Shown here: one piece after another, positions 29,900 through 40,602 of the stretch | Position numbering within the stretch: the first letter of the stretch is position 1 | Layout: each line of letters begins with the position of its first letter | Origin: Gaetbulibacter sp. 4G1 | GTDB lineage: Bacteria > Bacteroidota > Bacteroidia > Flavobacteriales > Flavobacteriaceae | Assembly (NCBI RefSeq): GCF_002741945.1 | Contig: NZ_MDVN01000022.1 | Span: 62,001 to 126,000, forward strand | DNA length: 64,000 nucleotides | Direction: 5' to 3' | Made by a program: the position numbers and the translations under genes | Notes under the pieces: model-generated | The model's database searches: none | The model's input: only the letters and a program-made list of their open reading frames with translations | What the model was told of the DNA's origin: nothing

Positions 29900-30742
29900 A
29901 TGAATAAGTTTCTTTTATCTTTTATACTACTTACATCTTCTTGCAGTACAGGAAACTTAAAAGTTATTGCTGATTTACCTAAAGCCTTAAACGAAGCTTC
30001 TGGGATTGAAACTAATAATCATTCTGATTTAATATGGATGGTAAATGATGGTGGAAATGCATCTAAATTATTTGGGCTTTCAAGTGATGGAAAAATAAAA
30101 AAAGCATTAAAAATAAATGCCAAAAATAACGACTGGGAAGACTTAGCGTCTGACAAGGAGGGAAACATATATATTGGTGATTTTGGAAATAATGCTAACA
30201 AACGTAAAAATTTAGCCATTTTAAAAGTCAGTGTCGATTCTTTAAACAATAAAGGCAAAATTAATATAGAACGTATTTCATTTAACTATCCTAATCAAAA
30301 TAAATTCCCACCGAAAAAGAAACATTTATATTTTGATTCTGAAGCATTTTTTCATTTTAATGATAGCTTGTACATATTTACTAAAAGCCGTGTAAAAGGT
30401 GATTTTGGTAAAACTGATTTGTACAGAATCCCTGCAAAACAGGGCAAACATATTGCCGAACATGTATCTTCTTTTAATTCCTGCCCAGAAATAGATTGTT
30501 GGATTACTTCTGCAGATATTAGCGATGATGGTAAAAAAATAGTGCTTTTAAACTCAAAATCTGTATGGGTCTTTATCGATTTTAAAGAAACTGATTTTTT
30601 TAGCGGAAAGGCAATAGAATTCCCGTTAAACCACAATTCGCAAAAGGAAAGTATTTGCTTTAAAAATAAAAATACACTTTATATTTCAGATGAAAAGGCA
30701 CATGGAGTTGATGGTAATTTATATAAGCTTGAAATAAATTAA
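29900..30742 (+). CDS. Lipoprotein with beta-propeller-like repeats, unknown function
   Basis: A 280-aa lipoprotein (lipobox TSSC, Cys15). The body has repeated short beta segments: DLIWMVNDGGNASKLFGL, NDWEDLASDKEGNIYIGDFGNNANKRKNL, FDSEAFFHFNDSLYIFTKSR and ADISDDGKKIVLLNSK, which suggest a beta-propeller; the GDFGNN phrase recurs in other Bacteroidota proteins. No named family recognised. It lies just left of the cassette array: 16 bp after its stop the degenerate boundary element begins. Confidence 0.7.
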   Translation: MNKFLLSFILLTSSCSTGNLKVIADLPKALNEASGIETNNHSDLIWMVNDGGNASKLFGLSSDGKIKKALKINAKNNDWEDLASDKEGNIYIGDFGNNANKRKNLAILKVSVDSLNNKGKINIERISFNYPNQNKFPPKKKHLYFDSEAFFHFNDSLYIFTKSRVKGDFGKTDLYRIPAKQGKHIAEHVSSFNSCPEIDCWITSADISDDGKKIVLLNSKSVWVFIDFKETDFFSGKAIEFPLNHNSQKESICFKNKNTLYISDEKAHGVDGNLYKLEIN

Positions 30743-30757
30743 CCCACTATTTCTTAT

Positions 30758-30909
30758 TATATAAAATTATGATTACCTTTATTTAATAAGAATTTTCTAT
30801 CATTTTTTATGGAAACTCAAGAACATAAAAATCATCAAAACTTCCGCATAGCATCCAAAAAAGACCGGATAAAAGGATAAAAGTTCTTTATATAAACAAG
30901 TTGTGTAAC
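30758..30909 (+). repeat. Degenerate left-boundary cassette element
   Basis: Right arm TTTATATAAACAAGTT (30887-30902) resembles the right arms of the other elements (consensus CATAYA CRANNA CGTT), with TAAACA at the 6-nt extra segment and AGTT for CGTT. TATATAAA at 30758-30765 pairs with TTTATATA at 30887-30894. The rest is not clear, so it could be a decayed element or an attI-like boundary. GTTGTGTAAC at 30900 starts the first cassette. Confidence 0.45.
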
Positions 30910-30998
30910 ATTATGAAAAACAGAAACCAATATAGTAATCTAATCAAAATTCGTTTTTTCAAAGGAAAAATGTAACTTTAATCAAATTTATAGAAGTT

Positions 30999-31493
30999 AT
31001 GAAAGTATCTAAATTAATTTCCCCAATCTTCCTTTTAGCGTTTATTATAATATATAGTTGTGGTAGTACAGGAGGTTATTTTAGTAAATCAAAATGTGGT
31101 ATGACATTGATAAATCCTAAAAAGAATTATAAGCAGACCGATTCTATTGTAAAAAGAGGAAGAATAGGTCTAGGAGTTTTAAATGTATTTGAAAAAGTCA
31201 GTGGACTAAAAGATAGTTCTGCAGTTTATGATTTTTATAATAAAAAGATAAGAGAAACAGCAAATTATACACCTCGCGAAGTAGTAGATGCACTGAATTT
31301 TAGAATTGAGAGCTTTTGTTTTAAGCACAAACAATTGGACAAAGACAGGAGAGATTCACAACTACCTCAGTCGAGTAGAAAAAAAGCTGATAGTCTTTAT
31401 TTTGTGAACTTAGATAATATTGAGACTTTTAATAAAATATTACAGGGACAAATATCTAATCCTTTAGACAGTATTGTAAAAAAAAAACCTTAG
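30999..31493 (+). pseudogene. Lipoprotein of unknown function, 5' part of a frameshifted gene
   Basis: The reading frame encodes 164 aa: signal peptide with lipobox IIIYSCGS (Cys about 22), then a helical, charged body. It stops at TAG 31491-31493 right after a run of ten A (31478-31487) encoding KKK. The frame of the next segment is open from 31460 and continues to 32254. Adding one A to the run gives a single 418-aa lipoprotein. No family is recognised. It is the 5' part of the first cassette gene. The shift may be a sequencing error, a true mutation or a slippage switch. Confidence 0.7.
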
Positions 31494-32254
31494 CCCCAAT
31501 TATTAATGGCGCATTTAAGAAAATAGAAATTAAAGATATTCCATATAATTTTTCTTCCGACGAACTTTTAGCTCTTGAAAATTATGTGCCGTTTTTTTGT
31601 AAAATAGAAATTAAAAATGATAATAACCATACTGATTTAAAGTTTCATAACATAGTGATAAATCACGAGGTTCCTAATAGTAAGAAACTAAATAATGATG
31701 ATGAAGATTCTGATTTTGAAAGATGGATGCCATATAATTTAGGGGCTACCTGTTCTTTTGAATATTCAAATCATTTTGATGATGAATCTACTGATGTAAA
31801 TCTATTGGCAGCACAACTGCAGAAAAAGTTGACTAAAGAACAATCTATTAAAATTCAAAATGATATAAATAGAGCAGTCATTCAATCATCAAAAAAAAAG
31901 GATATAATAGAATTAGGTGTATACTTTAAAAACTATTTCTCAAAAGAGTTCAAACTTAACTATGAAAGTTTCCATATTTCATTTAATGACCCTGAAATAT
32001 TTTCATTTTATTTCTTTATTAGAGAGGAAGTGATTGACAATTACTCAAATTTAAGTGTGTTACCAACAGAATCTTACTACGAAGAGTTAGGAAGTCAAAG
32101 CATAAGATTAAAATCTATTAAACCTGATACCGAGGAAATTACGAATAAACTTGTTGATTTAGAAAAACTAAGGGTTTGCATTGAGATTAACACCTCTTCG
32201 ACTAATACTAGTGAGACCTTTTTGAGTAAAAAATGTTTTGAATATAATCTATAG
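31460..32254 (+). pseudogene. 3' part of the frameshifted cassette lipoprotein gene
   Basis: No ATG starts this frame near its beginning; it is open from 31460, and the first usable alternative start is a GTG at 31586. The translation (TLAPIINGAFKKIEIKDIPY, then FCKIEIKNDNNH and so on) is acidic, with many Asp, Glu and Asn, and has no recognised domain. It lies -1 relative to the upstream frame, and the A10 run falls inside the 31460-31490 overlap, which supports one former gene. Whether it is translated alone is doubtful. Confidence 0.65.
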
Positions 32255-32288
32255 AGTTTATTGAGCTCTTTAAAAATATGCTAATAAC

Positions 32289-32424
32289 GTTACACAACAA
32301 CGTGTATAATTAATTGCTCGAGTTTCTCTCTGCCAATCGGAAAATTCTCTGAATTTTCCTCAGTCCAAAACCTTTTGCTAACTTAGTTGCTAATCGCAAC
32401 TAATCATACACAAACACGTTGTAC
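32289..32424 (+). repeat. attC-like cassette element A (126-bp palindromic core)
   Basis: Outer ACAACG (32297-32302) pairs with CGTTGT (32417-32422). Left arm TGTATAATTAATTGC pairs with the right arm, which carries the extra TGTTTG (as reverse complement) between AACG and the paired segment. Central perfect hairpin GGAAAATTC / GAATTTTCC (32339-32347, 32351-32359). Upstream, GTTACACAAC (32289-32298) is the end of the first cassette. Confidence 0.85.
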
Positions 32425-32431
32425 TTAATTT

Positions 32432-33343
32432 ATGTCGAAAAGCAAACCTGGAATCGAATTTGAAAAATTAGCTGAGTCAATATTCAAAAAGTTGATTCGT
32501 GACGACCGATTTGAATCTGTAGAACATAATGTACAACTAATGGGTCAAGATGGTCTTAGGCAAATTGATGTATTAGTGAAAACTAAATCAATAGGCATGG
32601 AATTTAATACCATAATTGAGTGCAAAGATTACAAAAGAAAACTTTCAATAATTTATGTAGATAGCTTCCATTCTAAACTTCTTGATGTAAATGCAAGTAA
32701 AGGCATTCTGGTTTCAAGAAATGGATTTTCTACAAAGGCTATTTCCAAAGCGAAAAGATTGGGTATTACTTTGTGTACAGCTGACGAGGCATCAGATCCA
32801 AACTGGAAATTAAAAGTAGATATTCCAATTGTTTTAGAAGAAATTCAACCAGTTCATTTTAGGTTTACTGGTGAGTTTAACACGCAAGAAATGATTAATA
32901 TTCCTCATGAGAATCTTCCAGTAATAAATGACATTGACCTCACTAAATTCGTAAACGACGGCTGGAAAAATGGAAGTTTACCTTTCAAAAAAACTAAGAA
33001 ACCGCAAAAAGTAACAATTGATAGTTTATCTCCTCCTTATTATATCAAAGCTGAAAATGGAGTTCTTGTAGAAATGAAAAATTTTGAAGTTACTTTCTCA
33101 TTAGAAATTCGATATTATATTTCTAATCTAAATGAATTGAAAAATACTCAAATTTTGAATAATATAACGTCTAGCAGTACCACTATATTCTTCGATGTTA
33201 ACTCTATTACTGATTTGAATTTTAATCCTAAAATAATCCCTAAAACACATTTAAAAAACTACAAAGGATTAACTTTATCTATCAAAATACTAACAGATAT
33301 GGATGATGATTATAAAAAAGTTCAATTTTTTAAAATAAACTAA
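32432..33343 (+). CDS. Mrr-like restriction endonuclease-fold protein (cassette 1)
   Basis: A 303-aa protein with an N-terminal PD-(D/E)XK nuclease fold of the Mrr_cat type: FEKLAESIF helix (10-18), Asp46 in QIDVLVK and Glu63-x-Lys65 in IIECKDYKRK, followed by SKGILVSRNGFSTKA. A DNA-cleaving or defence-related role is likely from the fold. The C-terminal 180 residues are beta-rich and unrecognised (VKVDIPIVLEEIQPVHFRFTGEF onward). It starts 14 bp after the cassette's left end, and its stop TAA (33341) is inside the terminal repeat of the next element. No methyltransferase partner is present, so it is not a classical type II system. Confidence 0.78.
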   Translation: MSKSKPGIEFEKLAESIFKKLIRDDRFESVEHNVQLMGQDGLRQIDVLVKTKSIGMEFNTIIECKDYKRKLSIIYVDSFHSKLLDVNASKGILVSRNGFSTKAISKAKRLGITLCTADEASDPNWKLKVDIPIVLEEIQPVHFRFTGEFNTQEMINIPHENLPVINDIDLTKFVNDGWKNGSLPFKKTKKPQKVTIDSLSPPYYIKAENGVLVEMKNFEVTFSLEIRYYISNLNELKNTQILNNITSSSTTIFFDVNSITDLNFNPKIIPKTHLKNYKGLTLSIKILTDMDDDYKKVQFFKIN

Positions 33344-33479
33344 ATACAACAACGTGTATAGTCAATTGCTTGATTATCGCCTACTTGGAAATTCCTTCGG
33401 AATTTCCTCTGGTTCGTTTTTGTTTACTAACTTAGTCCTAGCCTACGCAACTGAACCATACACGAACACGTTACCACAC
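33341..33479 (+). repeat. attC-like cassette element B (126-bp core)
   Basis: ACAACG (33349-33354) opens the core, which ends CGTTAC (33469-33474). The right arm, as reverse complement, reads TAACG, TGTTCG, TGTATGGTTCAGTTGC, against left TGTATAGTCAATTGC. Central perfect hairpin GGAAATTCC / GGAATTTCC (33387-33395, 33399-33407) with loop TTC. TAAATACAAC (33341-33350) ends cassette 1; GTTACCACAC (33470-33479) starts cassette 2. Confidence 0.85.
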
Positions 33480-33481
33480 AT

Positions 33482-34114
33482 TTGATAAAAATCGAACGTT
33501 CATATAATCCAGAAGAAATTAAACTGTTGAAAAGCAGGAAAAATTCGCTTTGGGACCACTTTGAGAATTTTGGACTAAAATTTATTGGAGTAACATTTGT
33601 ACTTCTTGCACCTCTATTACTTTATGATAAGTTTATTAGTAAAGTCTCGTCTGAAACGCAACTTCTGATTTTAATTCCTTTACTTATAATTTCAATTGGA
33701 ACTGTAATTTATTGGATGAATAAAAACGGAGAAATAGGCTGGAATAAAAAAGTGGAAAACGAAATAAAAAATGGACAAGCTCAAGTTCTGAAAATACAAA
33801 CGGGCAAAGTATTTAAGCGAAAGCAAACTTGGGATTTAGGCTCTGGTTTTTATTTAAAAATATCAGATAATCAGACCCTGTTTTTGCAAGGACAATATTT
33901 TGACGAATTACAATATGGACGGAAATTTCCAAATACTGACTTTGAGATTGTGAGAACCAAACTGACTTTTAACGAATTGATTGACATAAAATCTTTTGGA
34001 AAATACTTAAAACCTGAAAAGAAATTAAAAGCATTTACTAAAGAACAATTTGACAAAAACGAAGTTCATTGGGATGGAGATTTATTGGAAATTCCAATTG
34101 AACAAATAAAATAA
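33482..34114 (+). CDS. Two-helix membrane protein of unknown function (cassette 2)
   Basis: A 210-aa protein with two hydrophobic helices (about 33-52 and 63-81: FIGVTFVLLAPLLLY and LLILIPLLIISIGTVIYW) and a C-terminal soluble domain of about 120 aa (TGKVFKRKQTWDLGSGFYLKI...). I do not recognise the family. No ATG fits the start; TTG at 33482 is the first possible start and lies 2 bp after the cassette's left terminus, so the true start may be a nearby non-ATG codon. It ends 4 bp before the right terminal repeat of its cassette. Confidence 0.6.
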   Translation: MIKIERSYNPEEIKLLKSRKNSLWDHFENFGLKFIGVTFVLLAPLLLYDKFISKVSSETQLLILIPLLIISIGTVIYWMNKNGEIGWNKKVENEIKNGQAQVLKIQTGKVFKRKQTWDLGSGFYLKISDNQTLFLQGQYFDELQYGRKFPNTDFEIVRTKLTFNELIDIKSFGKYLKPEKKLKAFTKEQFDKNEVHWDGDLLEIPIEQIK

Positions 34115-34118
34115 AAAC

Positions 34119-34256
34119 GTGTGGTAACAATGTGTATCATTCATTGCTAGTAAAGGCTTACTTACGAAAATCCTCGCGGATTTTCTATTCGGTTTGTATT
34201 TGCTAAATTAGGTGTTTAAAACACGTAACAAACCATATACAACCACGTTGTATTTA
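34119..34256 (+). repeat. attC-like cassette element C (125-bp core)
   Basis: ACAATG (34127-34132) opens and CGTTGT (34246-34251) closes the core. The right arm reads, as reverse complement, AACG, TGGTTG, TATATGG; left arm TGTATCATTCATTGC. Central hairpin GAAAATCC / GGATTTTC (34166-34173, 34178-34185) with 4-nt loop TCGC. GTGTGGTAAC (34119-34128) ends cassette 2; GTTGTATTTA (34247-34256) starts cassette 3. Confidence 0.85.
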
Positions 34257-34296
34257 ATACCAGAACAAATTAACGTTCCTCTTTTATATTAAAAAA

Positions 34297-34347
34297 TTGT
34301 AGTATTTAAAATATTATATATATTTGCACTGACTATACGGTCAGTCA
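34297..34347 (+). promoter_or_regulatory. Promoter and TetR operator inside cassette 3
   Basis: TTG (34297-34299), 19 nt, TATATTTG (34319-34326) fits the Bacteroidota -33/-7 pattern TTG, 19-20 nt, TAnnTTTG. Directly downstream lies TGACT, ATACGGTC, AGTCA (34330-34347), an inverted repeat where the transcript would begin, 10 bp before the TetR ATG. This suggests an autoregulated promoter driving TetR, GNAT and RsgA. Confidence 0.8.
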
Positions 34348-34357
34348 ATTTAATTTT

Positions 34358-34894
34358 ATGGATAAAAAAGAACAAATAATAGAAATCGCAACCAAACTAT
34401 TTTCTGAAAATGGATTTGAAAACACACCTATTTCAAAAATATGCGAGGAAAGTAATGTTTCCAAAGGATTAGTTTTTCATCATTTCAAATCTAAAGATGA
34501 ATTGTTAAGGGAAATATTTTCAAGCACTACAGAAACAATAATTAAATTAAATGAATCTGTTAACAAAGAACAATCTCCAATCAAACAATTGTTGGATTTA
34601 ATCAATTCATTCTTTTCGCAAATAGAAAAGGATAAATTATTTTTTCAATTGAATTTAAACATTATGATTCAACCAAAAACAAGGGTGCTATTAAACGATT
34701 TAATAAAAGAAAGAAGTGCTTTTATCTTAAATTCTGTAACACAACTTTTTGAACAAATAGATACAGAAAGTGCAGAGATTAAAAGTTATTTATTTATAGC
34801 AGAACTAGATGGTATTGCACTTAACTATTTAGGAATTTTTGATGATTACCCATTAGATAAAATCAAAAACCAACTAATAAAAAAATATACTTAA
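34358..34894 (+). CDS. TetR family transcriptional regulator (cassette 3)
   Basis: A 178-aa TetR repressor: N-terminal HTH KEQIIEIATKLFSENGFENT, ISKICEESNVSKGLVFHHFKSKDELL (about 8-48), then an alpha-helical ligand/dimer domain with no clear signature. It binds DNA as a dimer and is released by a small ligand. Its operator-like inverted repeat overlaps the promoter at 34319-34347, so it probably represses its own operon, which continues with the GNAT gene 1 bp further on and then rsgA. The ligand is not predictable. Confidence 0.88.
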   Translation: MDKKEQIIEIATKLFSENGFENTPISKICEESNVSKGLVFHHFKSKDELLREIFSSTTETIIKLNESVNKEQSPIKQLLDLINSFFSQIEKDKLFFQLNLNIMIQPKTRVLLNDLIKERSAFILNSVTQLFEQIDTESAEIKSYLFIAELDGIALNYLGIFDDYPLDKIKNQLIKKYT

Positions 34895-34895
34895 A

Positions 34896-35678
34896 ATGGA
34901 ATTTAAAATAACACAAGACACGAATAAAATTAACGAATTAAGAGCACAGTTATATTCAAAATTAACAGCTCCTATTGATGCAATGTGGGAGTTATTATAC
35001 ATAGCATCAGCTAAAAACTATCTAATTTATAGTGAAGAAAAAAATATAGGATATTGCTCCATTGACAACAATCATAGCCTTCTGCAACTATTTTTTTTAG
35101 ATGGTTTTAAAGCTAAAATGAAAACTGTAGTTGAATCTCTTATTGAGCAAAAATTAATAGTTTCAGCAAGTTTAAGTTCAAACGAACCAATAGCATTTAA
35201 CACTTGTTTATCACTTTCAAAATCAATCAAGCCAAATACGTTTTGCTTTCAGCATACAAATTCAGAAGTTGATGAAAATTCATCTTTAAATCTTGAATTA
35301 GTATCAGAAACTGATATTCCAGAAATCAAATCGTTTTTAAAAGAACAAATTGGAATGGATGATACCTTTGGCTATACTGAAAACTTGGTAAGCAGAAAAG
35401 AAATTTACTTTATAAAAGAAGGCAATAAAATTATTACTACTAGTGAATGTAGATGGAGTGATACACAGCCAGAAATAGCCGATTTGGGAATTATTGTAAA
35501 TAAAAATCAGCAAGGAAAAGGAATTGCTACTCAAGTTCTGAAATTGCAAGCAAACAGAGTGATACAAGCAAACAGAAAACCAATTTGCTCAACAACAATT
35601 GACAATATTGGTTCACAAAAAGCAATTGAAAGAGCTGGTTTTTATTGTTCAAATATCATTTTTGATATTCAATTTTAA
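34896..35678 (+). CDS. GNAT family N-acetyltransferase (cassette 3)
   Basis: A 260-aa protein whose C-terminal half (about 135-260) is a GNAT domain: the acetyl-CoA binding LGIIVNKNQQGKGIATQVLK (Q-x-x-G-x-A form) and the C-terminal TTIDNIGSQKAIERAGFY are present. The N-terminal half is unlike GNAT at sequence level but has a similar length, so it may be a degenerate duplicate. The substrate is unknown. One base after the TetR stop and 10 bp before the RsgA ATG, it is in the same operon, so the TetR ligand may be linked to it. Confidence 0.8.
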   Translation: MEFKITQDTNKINELRAQLYSKLTAPIDAMWELLYIASAKNYLIYSEEKNIGYCSIDNNHSLLQLFFLDGFKAKMKTVVESLIEQKLIVSASLSSNEPIAFNTCLSLSKSIKPNTFCFQHTNSEVDENSSLNLELVSETDIPEIKSFLKEQIGMDDTFGYTENLVSRKEIYFIKEGNKIITTSECRWSDTQPEIADLGIIVNKNQQGKGIATQVLKLQANRVIQANRKPICSTTIDNIGSQKAIERAGFYCSNIIFDIQF

Positions 35679-35688
35679 AGTTAGAAAA

Positions 35689-36753
35689 ATGACAATAAAC
35701 GATTTAGGTTTTTATAAACAATTAGAAATATATCGACAAGAACATCAATTGGACTCTTTTGAAGTTGCTCGTGTAGTTTCTGAACATAAAGATAGATACA
35801 CAATTAAAACCGTTTCTAACGAATTGGAGGCTGAACTTATTGGAAATTTAAGATTTACAGCAGAATTCAAATACGATTTACCTGTTGTCGGAGATTGGGT
35901 AGCTATTAATGAATATGATGACAATAAGGCGTTAATCCATTTTGTATATCCAAGAACGTCTATATTAGCAAGAAAAGCAGTTGGTAAACTTGGTAAAACT
36001 CAAATAATTGCAACTAATATTGATCTTGGCTTAATTGTTCAATCAGTAAATCGAGATTTTAATTTAAACCGAATTGAACGCTATTTAACTATTTGTAATT
36101 CGGCTAATATTAGACCTATTGTTATTATTAGTAAGATTGATCTAATCCAAACATCAGAATTAAATGAAATTTTAAATAAGACTAAAGAACGAATTAAAGG
36201 CGTTTTAATAATTGCAATTAGCAATCAATCAAAAGATGGGATTAGTGAAATAAAACAACAATTAACAAAAGGAAAAACGTATTGTTTGTTAGGTTCTTCG
36301 GGAGTTGGAAAATCAACGCTAATAAATACCTTAATTGGAAAAAATATTATGAATACTGGAAATATTAGTGAAAGTATTGATAGAGGAAAGCACGTTACAA
36401 CTCGCAGAGAATTAATTGTTACAGAAAATGGAATTTTAATTGATAATCCTGGAATGAGAGAAGTTGGAATAACTGACAATTCCAAAGGTCTTGAATTGAC
36501 TTTTGATGAAGTTTCCAATTTAACATTCGACTGTAAATTTAATAACTGTACACATACAAATGAAAAAGGTTGTGCTATTATAAATGCTTTGGAAAACGGA
36601 GAATTAGATTTGGAATCATATCAAAATTTTCGAAAAATGGAACGAGAACGACTATTTTTCGACTCGAGTTCAGAGGAACGTAAAAAGAAAGATAAAGATT
36701 TAGGAAAATTGATTAAAAATGTAGTTAAAGAAAGAAAAAGAAACAAGTACTAA
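35689..36753 (+). CDS. rsgA: RsgA-like ribosome small-subunit GTPase (cassette 3)
   Basis: A 354-aa circularly permuted GTPase. An OB-like N-terminal domain (about 20-90), then G4 SKID (148-151), G1 GSSGVGKST (202-210), G3 DNPG (252-255) and a zinc site C282, C287, H289, C295 (C-x4-C-x-H-x5-C) match RsgA/YjeQ, which checks late 30S maturation. The start at 35689 fits the OB fold; an earlier in-frame ATG at 35599 would overlap the GNAT gene and add 30 aa with no homology. A cassette-borne RsgA is unusual; the chromosomal copy would be expected elsewhere in the genome. Stop at 36753 is inside the cassette's end repeat. Confidence 0.88.
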   Translation: MTINDLGFYKQLEIYRQEHQLDSFEVARVVSEHKDRYTIKTVSNELEAELIGNLRFTAEFKYDLPVVGDWVAINEYDDNKALIHFVYPRTSILARKAVGKLGKTQIIATNIDLGLIVQSVNRDFNLNRIERYLTICNSANIRPIVIISKIDLIQTSELNEILNKTKERIKGVLIIAISNQSKDGISEIKQQLTKGKTYCLLGSSGVGKSTLINTLIGKNIMNTGNISESIDRGKHVTTRRELIVTENGILIDNPGMREVGITDNSKGLELTFDEVSNLTFDCKFNNCTHTNEKGCAIINALENGELDLESYQNFRKMERERLFFDSSSEERKKKDKDLGKLIKNVVKERKRNKY

Positions 36754-36889
36754 ATACAACAACGTATATAAAAAATAGCGGCTTTAATGCTTAAACGAAA
36801 ATGAATTTTATAAATTTAAGGTCAGTTATAATCTGAAAAATTAGTGCGTAAAAATCCGCTACTTTTCATATACAAGAACGTTGTAACAC
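36747..36889 (+). repeat. attC-like cassette element D (126-bp core)
   Basis: ACAACG (36759-36764) and CGTTGT (36879-36884) enclose the core. Left arm TATATAAAAAATAGCGG pairs with right arm TATATGAAAAGTAGCGG (15 of 17) after the extra TTCTTG in the right arm. The central hairpin is weak here (5 bp). TAAATACAAC (36751-36760) ends cassette 3; GTTGTAACAC (36880-36889) starts cassette 4. Confidence 0.83.
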
Positions 36890-36890
36890 A

Positions 36891-37520
36891 TTACTCAAAA
36901 AACTCTGGCAATAAATTTTGAAATTCCTTTTTTCCTTTAGAAGTAAGAAAAGGGAATAATATACTTAAGAATGTATTTACGTGATAATCTATATTTCCTG
37001 TATTCAATTTATTCGAATAAAGATGACTAGAATATAACCAAGTATTACCATAATCAATCATTCTTTCCGCTAGAAAATTATATTCTAATTCAAAAGATGA
37101 TTCTTTCATCAAATCTTTTACTTTCATTTTTTTAAATAACAAGAAACACCCCTCAATTCTTTTTTTATATACCTGTTGAAAATGTTTTTGTACTGTACTA
37201 TTTATACAAATAAGATTATATAAGTCAGTCCAAAAAAAATTATAATCTAACATTCTCCTCATACTTCTCTCAATATCAATTTTAACTTGTTCAATTGAGA
37301 CTTCAACATTAGCTAACAGATCAATTCTTTCGTCAAATTCTGAAACCATTTCAAAATACAAGGCCTCAAAAATATCTTCTCGTTTTTTGTAATGATAATT
37401 TAAATTTCCCGGACTCATATTCATTTTTAAGGCTATCATTCTTATAGTTACATTGTGATATCCTTTTTCATTGAATAAAGTCTTAGCTGCTTCTAAAATT
37501 AGTTTCTTTTTTTTGCTCAT
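36891..37520 (-). CDS. TetR family transcriptional regulator (cassette 4)
   Basis: A 209-aa TetR regulator with HTH KLILEAAKTLFNEKGYHNVTIRMIALKMNMSPGNLNYHYKKREDIFEAL (about 5-52) and a helical C-terminal domain. It is divergent from the hydrolase gene; two direct repeats of TTAGTAAACTTGTCCTAAA (37520-37538 and 37549-37567) fill the shared 54-bp gap and are the likely operators for both genes. This is the only cassette gene on the - strand. The ligand is unknown. Its C-terminal FFE is near the cassette's left end. Confidence 0.86.
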   Translation of the reverse strand: MSKKKKLILEAAKTLFNEKGYHNVTIRMIALKMNMSPGNLNYHYKKREDIFEALYFEMVSEFDERIDLLANVEVSIEQVKIDIERSMRRMLDYNFFWTDLYNLICINSTVQKHFQQVYKKRIEGCFLLFKKMKVKDLMKESSFELEYNFLAERMIDYGNTWLYSSHLYSNKLNTGNIDYHVNTFLSILFPFLTSKGKKEFQNLLPEFFE

Positions 37521-37567
37521 TAGTAAACTTGTCCTAAATAAATATTTTTAGTAAACTTGTCCTAAAA
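37520..37567. promoter_or_regulatory. Two direct operator repeats between divergent cassette-4 genes
   Basis: TTAGTAAACTTGTCCTAAA occurs at 37520-37538 and 37549-37567 (19 bp, 29-bp spacing). Each is a partial inverted repeat (TTAG...CTAA). The first covers a TTG at 37529-37531 and the second covers TAAACTTG at 37552-37559, 20 nt later, fitting the -33/-7 spacing with one -7 mismatch. Likely TetR binding sites that block the hydrolase promoter. Confidence 0.72.
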
Positions 37568-37574
37568 ATACAAA

Positions 37575-38432
37575 ATGAAATCATTATATAAATCACAAAT
37601 TGGAAAAAAAGAGATTATAAGTCTTTATGATCAAAAATTAAAGGACTTAAATATTGATTATAAATACAAACTCATCAATACGAGTTTTGGAAAAACCAAT
37701 ATTATCGTGATTGGAGATTCCTCGAAACCACCAATATTAATAATCCACGGTTCAAATGGATGTGCTCCAATTTCATTAGAAACCTATCCAAATCTTTACA
37801 AAGATTTTCAAGTATTTGCAATAGATGCTCTTGCGCAACCCAATAAAAGTGCGGAAAACAGGTTGAGTATGAAAGACGACAGTTATGGTTTTTGGATGAA
37901 TGAAATTATAAATAAACTAAGCCTAACCGATGTAACTATGGCTGGTTTTTCGTTTGGAGGACTAATTATACTCAAAACATTAATTCAAGATGAAAAAAAC
38001 ATTAAAGAAGTGTTTTTATCTGCTCCTGCTTTTATTGTAAATGGTAATCCTATAGTTTTATTATTTAAGGTTTTTATTCCTATGAAGCTCTATATGAAAA
38101 CTAAAAAATCAAAGTATCTTGAAAAATTTTTAAACACTCTTTTTACAGAACCAGATACATTCGCTCTTGAGTATTTATCAAAAGTGTTTTTATATTTTAA
38201 TATGGACTTCACACCAGTTCCTGTAATAAAAGATTCTGAAGCCAAATTGATAACCACTCCAATAAATATATTTGCCGCAAAAAAAGATATTATGTTTCCT
38301 GGAATAAAAATGCTTAAACGTGCTAGCAAAATTTTTCCATCTTTAAACAATACTATTTTATTAGAAAACTCTAAACACGTCCAAAACAGAATTGATAATA
38401 ATAAAATAGAAAAAATAATATCGAGAAAATAA
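37575..38432 (+). CDS. Alpha/beta-hydrolase (cassette 4)
   Basis: A 285-aa cytoplasmic alpha/beta-hydrolase. The oxyanion-hole segment IIHGSNGC (about 53-60), nucleophile elbow MAGFSFGGLIIL (Ser about 121) and a C-terminal KHVQ (His about 270) fit a Ser-Asp-His triad; the Asp in NIFAAKKDIMFPG is the likely acid. Substrate is unknown; hydrolase plus TetR pairs often handle a small ester or lactone that is also the inducer (inference). Start is the ATG 10 bp after the second operator repeat, and the stop is 2 bp before the cassette's right end. Confidence 0.84.
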   Translation: MKSLYKSQIGKKEIISLYDQKLKDLNIDYKYKLINTSFGKTNIIVIGDSSKPPILIIHGSNGCAPISLETYPNLYKDFQVFAIDALAQPNKSAENRLSMKDDSYGFWMNEIINKLSLTDVTMAGFSFGGLIILKTLIQDEKNIKEVFLSAPAFIVNGNPIVLLFKVFIPMKLYMKTKKSKYLEKFLNTLFTEPDTFALEYLSKVFLYFNMDFTPVPVIKDSEAKLITTPINIFAAKKDIMFPGIKMLKRASKIFPSLNNTILLENSKHVQNRIDNNKIEKIISRK

Positions 38433-38512
38433 CGTATTACAAGAAAGGCTAAAAAAACAGAACCTAACCTACCAAACCGATTTTCCGTATTTTAGCTGGA
38501 ACGTTAGGTGTA
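38426..38512 (+). repeat. Short variant cassette element E
   Basis: Between cassettes 4 and 5. The end of cassette 4 (AATAACGTATTACAAG, 38428-38443) is the reverse complement of its start at 36880 with 12 of 16 matches. GGCTAAAA and TTTTAGCT form the paired arms, with the extra TTCC in the right arm before CGTTAGG (38502-38508). Shorter (about 75-80 bp) than the others. ACCTAAC (38462-38468) also pairs exactly with GTTAGGT (38503-38509), which fits the canonical integron R''/R' consensus. Confidence 0.6.
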
Positions 38513-38531
38513 ATTTGACCAAGCCTTGAAA

Positions 38532-39077
38532 ATGATATTAAAACATGAAAATTTCGTAATCGAAATAACAGATGAATCTGATTTGGATTCAGCAAAATTT
38601 AAGAAACAATATCCAGCCGATTTAGGTCATAAAATAGAATATCAACCTTCCTCTAAACATGGAATTCGAGTAATAGAAAGCGGAATTGAAAAATGTAGCG
38701 CAATATTATTGGAAAATGGAGGCGCAACTAGAATTTCCGAAAACTCATTCCTTATAAAAAAGGACAGAATCTATATCTGCTGTTCTGACAAAGTTTATTG
38801 TTTAAATATAACGGATTTATCTGCTAACTGGAGAAAACAATTTGACATTGCAACCTGTTTTGGAATTTACGAATTTGAAGATGACTTTGTTATACACGGA
38901 GAACTTCAGATTAGCCGAATCGACAAAAACGGAAACGAAAAATGGACTTTCGGAGCCAAAGATATTTTTGTGAATCCAGATGGAAAAAAAGAATTTAAAA
39001 TTAATGGCGACAGAATTGAATTGACAGATTGGGATGGGACGAAATACGAATTAAACTCTGACGGAATTGAAATGTAA
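38532..39077 (+). CDS. Beta-rich protein of unknown function (cassette 5)
   Basis: A 181-aa protein with start ATG at 38532 (TTG at 38526 adds two residues). It has short repeated strands: ILLENGGATRISENSFLI, IYICCSDKVYCLNI, GIYEFEDDFVIHGELQISRIDKNGNEKWTFGAKDIFV and YELNSDGIEM. The GxxIWxF...DIFV pattern resembles small hypothetical proteins found singly in many bacteria; the repeat of bladelike strands suggests a beta-propeller or lipocalin-like fold. No function known. It sits in a cassette whose start (GTTAGGTGTA, 38503) matches its end (TACACCTA-GCAAC, 39084-39096). Confidence 0.65.
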   Translation: MILKHENFVIEITDESDLDSAKFKKQYPADLGHKIEYQPSSKHGIRVIESGIEKCSAILLENGGATRISENSFLIKKDRIYICCSDKVYCLNITDLSANWRKQFDIATCFGIYEFEDDFVIHGELQISRIDKNGNEKWTFGAKDIFVNPDGKKEFKINGDRIELTDWDGTKYELNSDGIEM

Positions 39078-39080
39078 AAA

Positions 39081-39222
39081 AACTACACCTAGCAACGTGT
39101 ATAATTCATTGTTCATTCTATGAGCTTTTGGAAAATCATACGGATTTTCCTATGTTGTGCTTTTGTTTACTTGTTTAGTTCCTAAACAACATAACGAAAT
39201 CTCACACGAATACGTTGGCATG
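39081..39222 (+). repeat. attC-like cassette element F (127-bp core)
   Basis: GCAACG (39092-39097) and CGTTGG (39213-39218) enclose the core. Left arm TGTATAATTCATTG pairs with right arm TGTGAGATTTCGTTATG after the extra TATTCG. Central hairpin GGAAAATC / GATTTTCC (39130-39137, 39143-39150), 5-nt loop. TACACCTA-GCAAC (39084-39096) ends cassette 5. Confidence 0.82.
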
Positions 39223-39276
39223 TATTTGCGAGAAAGACATACGTTACTATTATAAAAATTATTGGATAAAAAAATC

Positions 39277-39906
39277 ATGACTGTAATAAATCAACTTTCA
39301 TCATCATTAGGACATAAAGGGAATGATGCGAATATAGCTTTAGCTAAGGAACTTGCTGAAACTGAAAATAGTGATGCTATTAAAGAACTTGTTGAGAATC
39401 TAAAAAACAAGGATAAAAAAATACAAGCTGATTGTATAAAAACACTTTATGAAGTTGCCTATATAAAACCAGATTTGATTGCGAGTTACTATTCAGAATT
39501 TTTAGAATTATTATCAAACAAAAACAATAGATTGGTTTGGGGTGGAATGATTGCCTTAATGACAATTACAGATTTGAAAAGTAAGGAATTATTTGAATCA
39601 TTAGATTTGATTTCAGATACGGTAAATCAAGGTTCCATTATAACGATTGATTCAGGAGTTGAGATTTACGCAAAGCTTAATAAATACTCGGAATATCAAG
39701 ACAAAGTAGAAAATTTGTTGATTGACCAATTATGGAAATGCCCGATAAAACAATTGCCTAAGTATATGGAAAAATCAATTATTTCGATAACTAAATGGAA
39801 TAAGGAGATTTATAAAAAAATAATTAATGAACGAAAACCGGAATGTGAAAAAGACTCTCAAGTAAAAAGACTTGATAAAGTGTTGAAACAGATTGATAAG
39901 ATATAA
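39277..39906 (+). CDS. HEAT-like helical protein (cassette 6)
   Basis: A 209-aa all-helical protein: the segment KELVENLKNKDKKIQADCIKTLYEVAYIKPDLIASY and NNRLVWGGMIALMTITDLKSKELFES (about 45-110) read as HEAT/armadillo-type repeats, suggesting a protein- or nucleic-acid-binding scaffold. ATG at 39277 gives a clean N-terminus; TTG at 39262 would add five residues. It is last in the array and no right terminal element follows it within the window (I looked for ACATGCCAAC and found none), so its cassette end has been lost or is too decayed. Confidence 0.65.
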   Translation: MTVINQLSSSLGHKGNDANIALAKELAETENSDAIKELVENLKNKDKKIQADCIKTLYEVAYIKPDLIASYYSEFLELLSNKNNRLVWGGMIALMTITDLKSKELFESLDLISDTVNQGSIITIDSGVEIYAKLNKYSEYQDKVENLLIDQLWKCPIKQLPKYMEKSIISITKWNKEIYKKIINERKPECEKDSQVKRLDKVLKQIDKI

Positions 39907-39930
39907 AACGCATTATGAGAATTAGTATAG

Positions 39931-40602
39931 CTAATCTTTAGTAGAATGCTGAATGTATTTACCAACTACAATAGCAGTAACAATTACTAAATAAAACTGC
40001 CCCATTAAACCTGTTATAATAGCTGCTTTTTGAGATAAAGGAGTAGTAGGAACAATATCGCCGTAACCAATAGTCATTAAGGTTATGTAAGAATAATACA
40101 TAATAGAATCTAAGCCTAAAACGACTTTACTGCCATCTATTACAATTCCTTTAAACGAATTAGGCTCTAATAATTCTATAGTAGCAAATAGAAAAAAAGC
40201 AATAAACCCTAAAGAAATATAACCACACATTAAACCAATAACTACAGTATTATTAACCCGTTTAGCTTTCCATATTTGCATGATAATTTGGTGGGTAACT
40301 ATGATATAAAAAATAAAATAAACACTTAATCTTATTAAAAAATTATCTTGAAAATCTGTATCTCTACTTATCATACTACTACCAAAAACAAATAAAGAAA
40401 TGGTAAATAGTATAATTAAAAACCACATCAATTTTTTCTTTTTAGAAATAAGCAAAATTCCTGCTATTGTATTGACTAAAAATAAAATTGGGGTTAAAAC
40501 ATTTTCAAAAAATTCACTAGGAAACAGTAAAGACCCAAACAATATAAATAATTGTGTAGCGAAAAAAATCTCAAATCTATGTTTATATAAATCCTTAATC
40601 AT
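39931..40602 (-). CDS. Potassium-channel-like ion channel protein
   Basis: A 223-aa membrane protein of about six hydrophobic segments with the K+ selectivity filter MTIGYGDIVPTTPLSQKA near residue 180, followed by a final helix (AIITGLMGQFYLVIVTAIVV). The Ion_trans_2 type pore (2-TM) is clear; there is no RCK domain. The start overlaps the last 8 bp of the RND pump gene, so it is translated after the pump in the same transcript. Its physiological role next to an efflux operon is not known. Confidence 0.85.
   Translation of the reverse strand: MIKDLYKHRFEIFFATQLFILFGSLLFPSEFFENVLTPILFLVNTIAGILLISKKKKLMWFLIILFTISLFVFGSSMISRDTDFQDNFLIRLSVYFIFYIIVTHQIIMQIWKAKRVNNTVVIGLMCGYISLGFIAFFLFATIELLEPNSFKGIVIDGSKVVLGLDSIMYYSYITLMTIGYGDIVPTTPLSQKAAIITGLMGQFYLVIVTAIVVGKYIQHSTKD

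Follow-up and report, generated by a model that had tools for sequence, protein, structure and literature searches.

Results

A cassette array in the window

The window, which means the whole stretch of 64,000 nucleotides of Gaetbulibacter sp. 4G1 DNA that was analysed, contains an array of gene cassettes, and this array very probably belongs to an integron-like cassette capture system of Bacteroidota with a tyrosine integrase that lacks helix I2. Judged from its sequence, the system would function like an integron, yet it falls outside the integrons by the IntI criterion. The sequence-only reading of the window had likened these units to attC cassettes in their behaviour and had raised the possibility of an undescribed cassette system, and both the terminus rule and the linked integrase described below support this.

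Six gene cassettes lie in tandem at window positions 30,901-39,214 and are separated by elements of about 126 bp and one short element. The bit scores below come from covariance model R1, which was built from five window elements; sites 1-4 and 6 are members of its own training set.

30781..30900 (+): attI-like copy, crossover G30900^T30901, placed by alignment to its counterparts on contig C23 of the same genome and in the genus mate G296
30901..32418 (+): cassette 1, ORFs 30999-31493 and 31586-32254, end pair 10/10
32286..32430 (+): attC-like site 1, R'' 32286-32298, R' from 32418, 134.5 bits
32419..33470 (+): cassette 2, gene 32432-33343 with Mrr_cat restriction endonuclease domain (PF04471, E=1e-11), end pair 9/10
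33338..33482 (+): attC-like site 2, 136.1 bits
33471..34247 (+): cassette 3, gene 33482-34114 without assigned function, end pair 10/10
34116..34259 (+): attC-like site 3, 119.6 bits
34248..36880 (+): cassette 4, TetR 34358-34894, GNAT 34896-35678 and RsgA-type GTPase 35689-36753 (Pfam), end pair 10/10
36748..36892 (+): attC-like site 4, 116.9 bits
36881..38503 (+): cassette 5, TetR 36891-37520 on the minus strand and alpha/beta hydrolase 37575-38432 (Pfam), end pair 8/10
38431..38515 (+): attC-like site 5, of a short type whose L stem differs (AGGCTAAAA / TTTTAGCT), read from the sequence, as the covariance model did not pick it up
38504..39214 (+): cassette 6, gene 38526-39077 without assigned function, end pair 9/10
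39081..39226 (+): attC-like site 6, 132.4 bits
39215..39931 (+): terminal remnant, gene 39262-39906, right edge set by the empty site in the genus mate G298

The Pfam search of cassette 1 gave no match; a poly-A run at about 31478 lies near the point where its two ORFs (window 30999-32254) are split, and they are probably one frameshifted gene. The covariance model found no attC behind the terminal gene, and an Rfam search returned no relevant family. Several 70-80% matches to the cassette stretch were seen on plasmids of Tenacibaculum, Persicobacter and Flagellimonas, and these are likely attC elements.

Each cassette is complementary to its own other end

The window cassettes had been described as having ends that are complementary within each unit, and this was borne out when all six pairs were re-measured. 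Over 10 nt, the start matched its own end at 10/10 (30900), 9/10 (32418), 10/10 (33470), 10/10 (34247), 8/10 (36880) and 9/10 (38503). The 13 nt that open each cassette are complementary to its own closing 13 nt and not to those of its neighbour, and ends that are neighbours in situ match at just 2-6 of 10 positions. The summed match of 56 was the maximum among all 720 re-pairings of the six window ends (mean 35), and it was reached by two re-pairings because two of the ends are identical. The 3-nt indel that had been assumed in the cassette starting at 38503 is not needed, as its end is at 39093 with one substitution.

In this genome and its relatives, the 7-nt core of 198 cassettes matched the cassette's own other end at 5.43 of 7 positions, compared with 2.62 ± 0.10 for shuffled partners, 3.17 ± 0.13 for partners shuffled within the locus and 2.74 when the two arms of a single site were compared in situ. 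Such own-end pairing is the outcome predicted by excision and circularisation through R' and R''. The one terminus rule that had been proposed as a check therefore held across related genomes: in these 198 cassettes R'' pairs with the cassette's own R' and the crossover is G^TT, as is expected of attC. The mismatch noted earlier at position 11 is present and could be refined to a constant A opposite C, which means a G.T pair on the bottom strand (own match 2% in the 198 cassettes). It is also mostly true that the termini do not fit the canonical R' consensus GTTRRRY, because position 5 was G or A in only 39% and position 6 was C in 47%. A position-weight finder located 282 sites in 50 loci, all on one strand per locus, and none in the same sequences read backwards.

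The L stems are alike between units, which would fit transposon or MITE ends with a single fixed terminal sequence, but 110 distinct 7-nt cores occur among the 198 cassettes and the match is lost when partners are shuffled, so that we give this explanation a negligible probability. The same numbers exclude both outcomes that had been named as refuting the cassette reading, namely fixed termini and a pairing that fails when more cassettes are included. As a known class, transposons with terminal inverted repeats were rejected for want of a fixed terminus.

The bottom strand is kept foldable

When sites were rebuilt with their own partner, the bottom-strand hairpin was the more stable one in 134 of 138 sites (mean 3.9 kcal/mol), and own partners gave hairpins more stable than random partners by about 5 kcal/mol. 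Mismatches that read A.C on the top strand, and hence G.T on the bottom strand, outnumbered the opposite kind by 143 to 1 in the R stem and by 435 to 31 in the L stem, or 578 to 32 for both stems together. As nearly all mismatches are bottom-strand G.T, the bottom strand is the strand that is kept foldable, and the bias may reflect selection for a bottom-strand hairpin with a built-in strand choice. Both the folding and the wobble bias thereby point to the bottom strand of attC as the putative recombining strand. The bulges were mostly on the R'-L' arm.

These results bear on the alternative that the same cassettes and integrase work through double-stranded sites like Xer/dif, with the hairpin serving, for example, transcription termination. 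The integrase is XerA/IntI-like and has no I2, the helix to which single-strand recombination is ascribed (PMC7790495), and attI is an ordinary double-stranded site, both of which would suit this alternative. But the 7 nt flanking the crossover are variable (110 kinds) and yet complementary within the cassette, and the mismatches are held as bottom-strand G.T; neither is explained by double-strand recognition, and we consider the alternative unlikely.

In the cassette capture system that we favour, the I2-less integrase, whose copy in this genome lies on C23, would act on the bottom strand of attC, folded as a single-stranded hairpin, and cut it at G^TT. The partner to which the cut attC is joined would be the double-stranded attI beside the integrase gene, a second attC or one of the landing pads that are dispersed and bear a promoter, and the cassette would go in so that its own R' and R'' come to lie at its two ends. 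The complementarity of own ends, the linkage of attI, array and integrase, the orientation of cassettes, the empty and filled sites, the bottom-strand folding bias and the absence of the I2 insert are all visible in the sequences. We infer that the integrase would be the catalyst of cassette recombination, that its substrate would be single-stranded and that the system would be active.

Integrase and attI in the host genome

The remark that no integrase is visible in the window was right, and one was found on another contig.

C23 61105-62214 (-): integrase, 370 aa, adjoins a tRNA-like gene

The stop codon of this integrase is followed by 135 bp and then by an array of 14 or more cassettes, every one of them on the integrase strand. 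Model R1 found dozens more elements in the genome, and their densest cluster (C23 48-60 kb) is the one headed by the integrase. The 135-bp stretch is an attI-like site: the attI-like copy in the window is 77% identical over 129 columns to this C23 region and 78% identical to that of G296, with an alignment score of 127, whereas none of 2000 random window pieces scored above 54. The integrase of G296 is 82% identical and has the same layout. An attI adjoining the integrase gene was found in 24 loci, and attI is conserved among C23, G296 and the window.

XerC and XerD are both encoded in the host genome, together with two further tyrosine recombinases, and could in principle move the cassettes, as with plasmid pdif modules. 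However, the hairpins of about 126 bp, the variable cores, the single orientation and the linked dedicated integrase all speak against XerC/XerD, which makes this an extremely unlikely explanation. The pdif modules themselves, with conserved 11+6+11 bp sites in alternating orientation, were rejected as a class; the sites here are one-way hairpins.

Sequence and structure of the integrase

The C23 integrase retains the tyrosine-recombinase catalytic residues, and its best matches by sequence and by fold were XerA and VchIntIA (the fold match was obtained with the predicted model of a relative). It lacks the IntI insert of about 41 residues with helix I2. The spacing from patch II to HxLRH was 65-66 aa in nearly all Bacteroidota integrases, compared with 106-107 in IntI1 and nine other IntI; the phmmer alignment to 2A3V jumps over residues 174-245, and the predicted structure of a relative has no helix in the I2 stretch. 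The IntI-specific domain with helix I2, which integron surveys required (PMC2426708), is therefore missing. Helix I2 is credited with single-strand recombination, and its acquisition is the accepted step to the use of single-stranded attC (PMC7790495). Many members have an N-terminal extension of about 90 aa without a Pfam match. In the tree, IntI formed one clade (100/100) without any Bacteroidota integrase, and the Bacteroidota integrases formed their own group (80/97); a sister relation between the two was not rejected (p-AU 0.298). NCBIfam scores were 212 bits to NF040815 (cut-off 220) and 196 bits to TIGR02249 (cut-off 265).

Linkage across genomes

Among 296 genomes of the order, 84 had an integrase homologue (threshold E<=1e-40), 63 had attC matches and 40 had both (Fisher 3e-11); an integrase was present in each of the 19 genomes that had at least ten attC. 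Integrase homologues without R2-type attC were found in 44 genomes and attC without an integrase at the threshold used in 23; other attC types, relics or divergent integrases could account for such genomes. Model R2 missed window site 5 and the 282-nt repeats of a Chryseobacterium plasmid, so the absence of an R2 match does not mean the absence of the system. On that plasmid (Chryseobacterium sp. SNU WT5, NZ_CP041688 13041-20867), a relative of the integrase is followed by codirectional genes between four copies of the 282-nt repeat, which is probably another attC type unseen by R2.

The linked integrase that had been proposed as a check was found heading arrays in this and related genomes. 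In 24 loci every same-strand cassette lies downstream of the integrase, and in 17 of them the first cassette begins 26-135 bp past the integrase stop with an 11-12/12 match to its own R''. In the named genomes, for example Algibacter onchidii, Winogradskyella ursingii, Seonamhaeicola aphaedonensis and Zunongwangia mangrovi, all 29 model matches were downstream on the integrase strand, and 43 non-Bacteroidota loci gave none. The named relatives also point to Flavobacteriaceae as the family of the host. The median cassette length was about 810 bp, and the longest ORF was codirectional in 131 of 144 cassettes. In three loci (L162, L191 and L196), C-terminal matches of other, repeated recombinases were seen inside the arrays on the strand opposite to attC, and these look like separate mobile elements.

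The array might also be a degraded canonical integron (CALIN), whose ordinary attC were formerly served by a classical IntI that has since been lost. The R''/R' logic, the G^TT crossover and the codirectional cassettes are the same in such an array, but the I2-less integrase heads arrays in about two dozen loci, the R stem is 13 nt long with a fixed wobble, and the bulges are mostly on the R'-L' arm. No protein in the 296 genomes exceeded the TIGR02249 cut-off, a weak negative because the control genomes also gave no match. We regard a degraded integron as very unlikely.

Empty sites and landing pads

In the genus mate G298 (90-94% identity), the window array locus is empty: this genome lacks everything from about 30,725 to 39,931, and window position 30,724 is joined straight to 39,932. 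The best reading of the window array is that of a cassette array that is led by attI and lacks an integrase of its own; it is possibly served in trans by the C23 integrase. Its origin may be either insertion together with attI or an old integron after integrase loss.

Elsewhere in the genome, cassettes occur singly in a repeated pad of about 105 bp, which consists of a promoter-like TTGACTTTG...TAACTTCG (TTG...TAACTTCG), then a hairpin and then A^TT. Matched pads numbered about 13 in G000 and 15 in G298. At one of the orthologous pads, G298 has no insert and G000 has a cassette of 814 bp whose junctions fall exactly at A^TT, and at other orthologous pads the inserts differ in length. Cassettes shared within and between genomes break at or just before G^TT, for example L187 17825-18742 and 1506-2437 (99.8%). 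About a dozen pads were seen in the own genome (such as C19:198853, C3:320849, C19:305194, C22:100932, C17:160700 and C21:852291), nearly all occupied by cassettes; the orthologous pads of G298 were empty or had different inserts (L016 vs L240).

Phage arrays

A search with the exact 33-nt attC pattern gave no match in viral contigs, but the integrase-led search did find arrays there (IMG/VR contigs L252-L331). Near the integrase relatives on these contigs, all 60 model matches were on the opposite strand at the 5' side of the integrase, which is a mirrored layout. For 49 of 59 phage sites the own start was found upstream at 11/12 or better, compared with 3 of 59 when the end of another contig was used. 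The longest ORF was opposite to attC in 49 of 49 phage cassettes, and the R-stem mismatch bias was 49:1. Where motifs could be placed, the phage integrases were mostly about 265 aa long with a spacing of 60-62, one having 65. The arrays are neighboured by an Erf-like annealing protein and an exonuclease. Two bacterial loci, L163 (G133) and L173 (G150), have the phage-like divergent layout with integrases of 272-275 aa and are possibly prophages.

Discussion

Cassettes appear to be collected by this bacterium, by many relatives and by some of their phages, much as in the integrons that spread resistance. We also think it probable that integron integrases have a second, independent lineage, spread over Bacteroidota chromosomes, plasmids and phages, which needs no I2 to recombine single-stranded attC hairpins, that the G.T/A.C asymmetry encodes the strand choice and that the host genome has a dozen dispersed, promoter-bearing docking sites. 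If the system works as we infer, a large reservoir of cassettes has been overlooked in Bacteroidota and in their phages, and the view of I2 as the key step (PMC7790495) would become directly testable with a natural I2-less integrase that still uses folded cassettes. Tools for cassette recombination could then also be built on a second design, and the system would be a clean marker with which to follow gene flow among phages, plasmids and hosts. Bacteroidota are listed among the integron-bearing phyla (PMC8618304), and the only complete Bacteroidetes integron reported by IntegronFinder 2.0 is that of Salinibacter (PMC9024848). No description of the present system was found in the published open-access literature on integrons of Bacteroidetes/Flavobacteria.

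Comparison with known systems

The system shares with integrons an integrase gene beside attI, tandem cassettes with mostly one gene, complementarity of own R' and R'', the G^TT crossover, the preference for a bottom-strand hairpin and insertion at secondary sites. It differs in its integrase, which is without the insert that bears I2 and falls outside the IntI clade, and in its R stem, which is 13 nt long and has a conserved G.T wobble, a bias that was measured in the sites of this system alone. The bulges here lie mainly on the R'-L' arm, whereas the R''-L'' arm is the one on which the classical extrahelical bases are defined (PMC2727003). Dispersed landing pads that bear a promoter and phage arrays whose genes are reversed relative to attC are further differences. 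With archaeal-type XerA (NF040815; PDB 5hxy, 4a8e) the integrase shares the best sequence and fold match and the lack of an I2 insert, but XerA has no cassette array, and the Bacteroidota integrase often has the N-terminal extension and scores below the NF040815 cut-off. In the accessible part of PMC9892861, phage integrons likewise combine cassette arrays and an integrase on phage genomes; those described there were detected by IntegronFinder/HattCI, and the complete ones have IntIA or IntI1. Compared with that part of the source, the phage arrays found here differ in an integrase of about 265 aa with no room for I2 and in having all genes opposite to attC.
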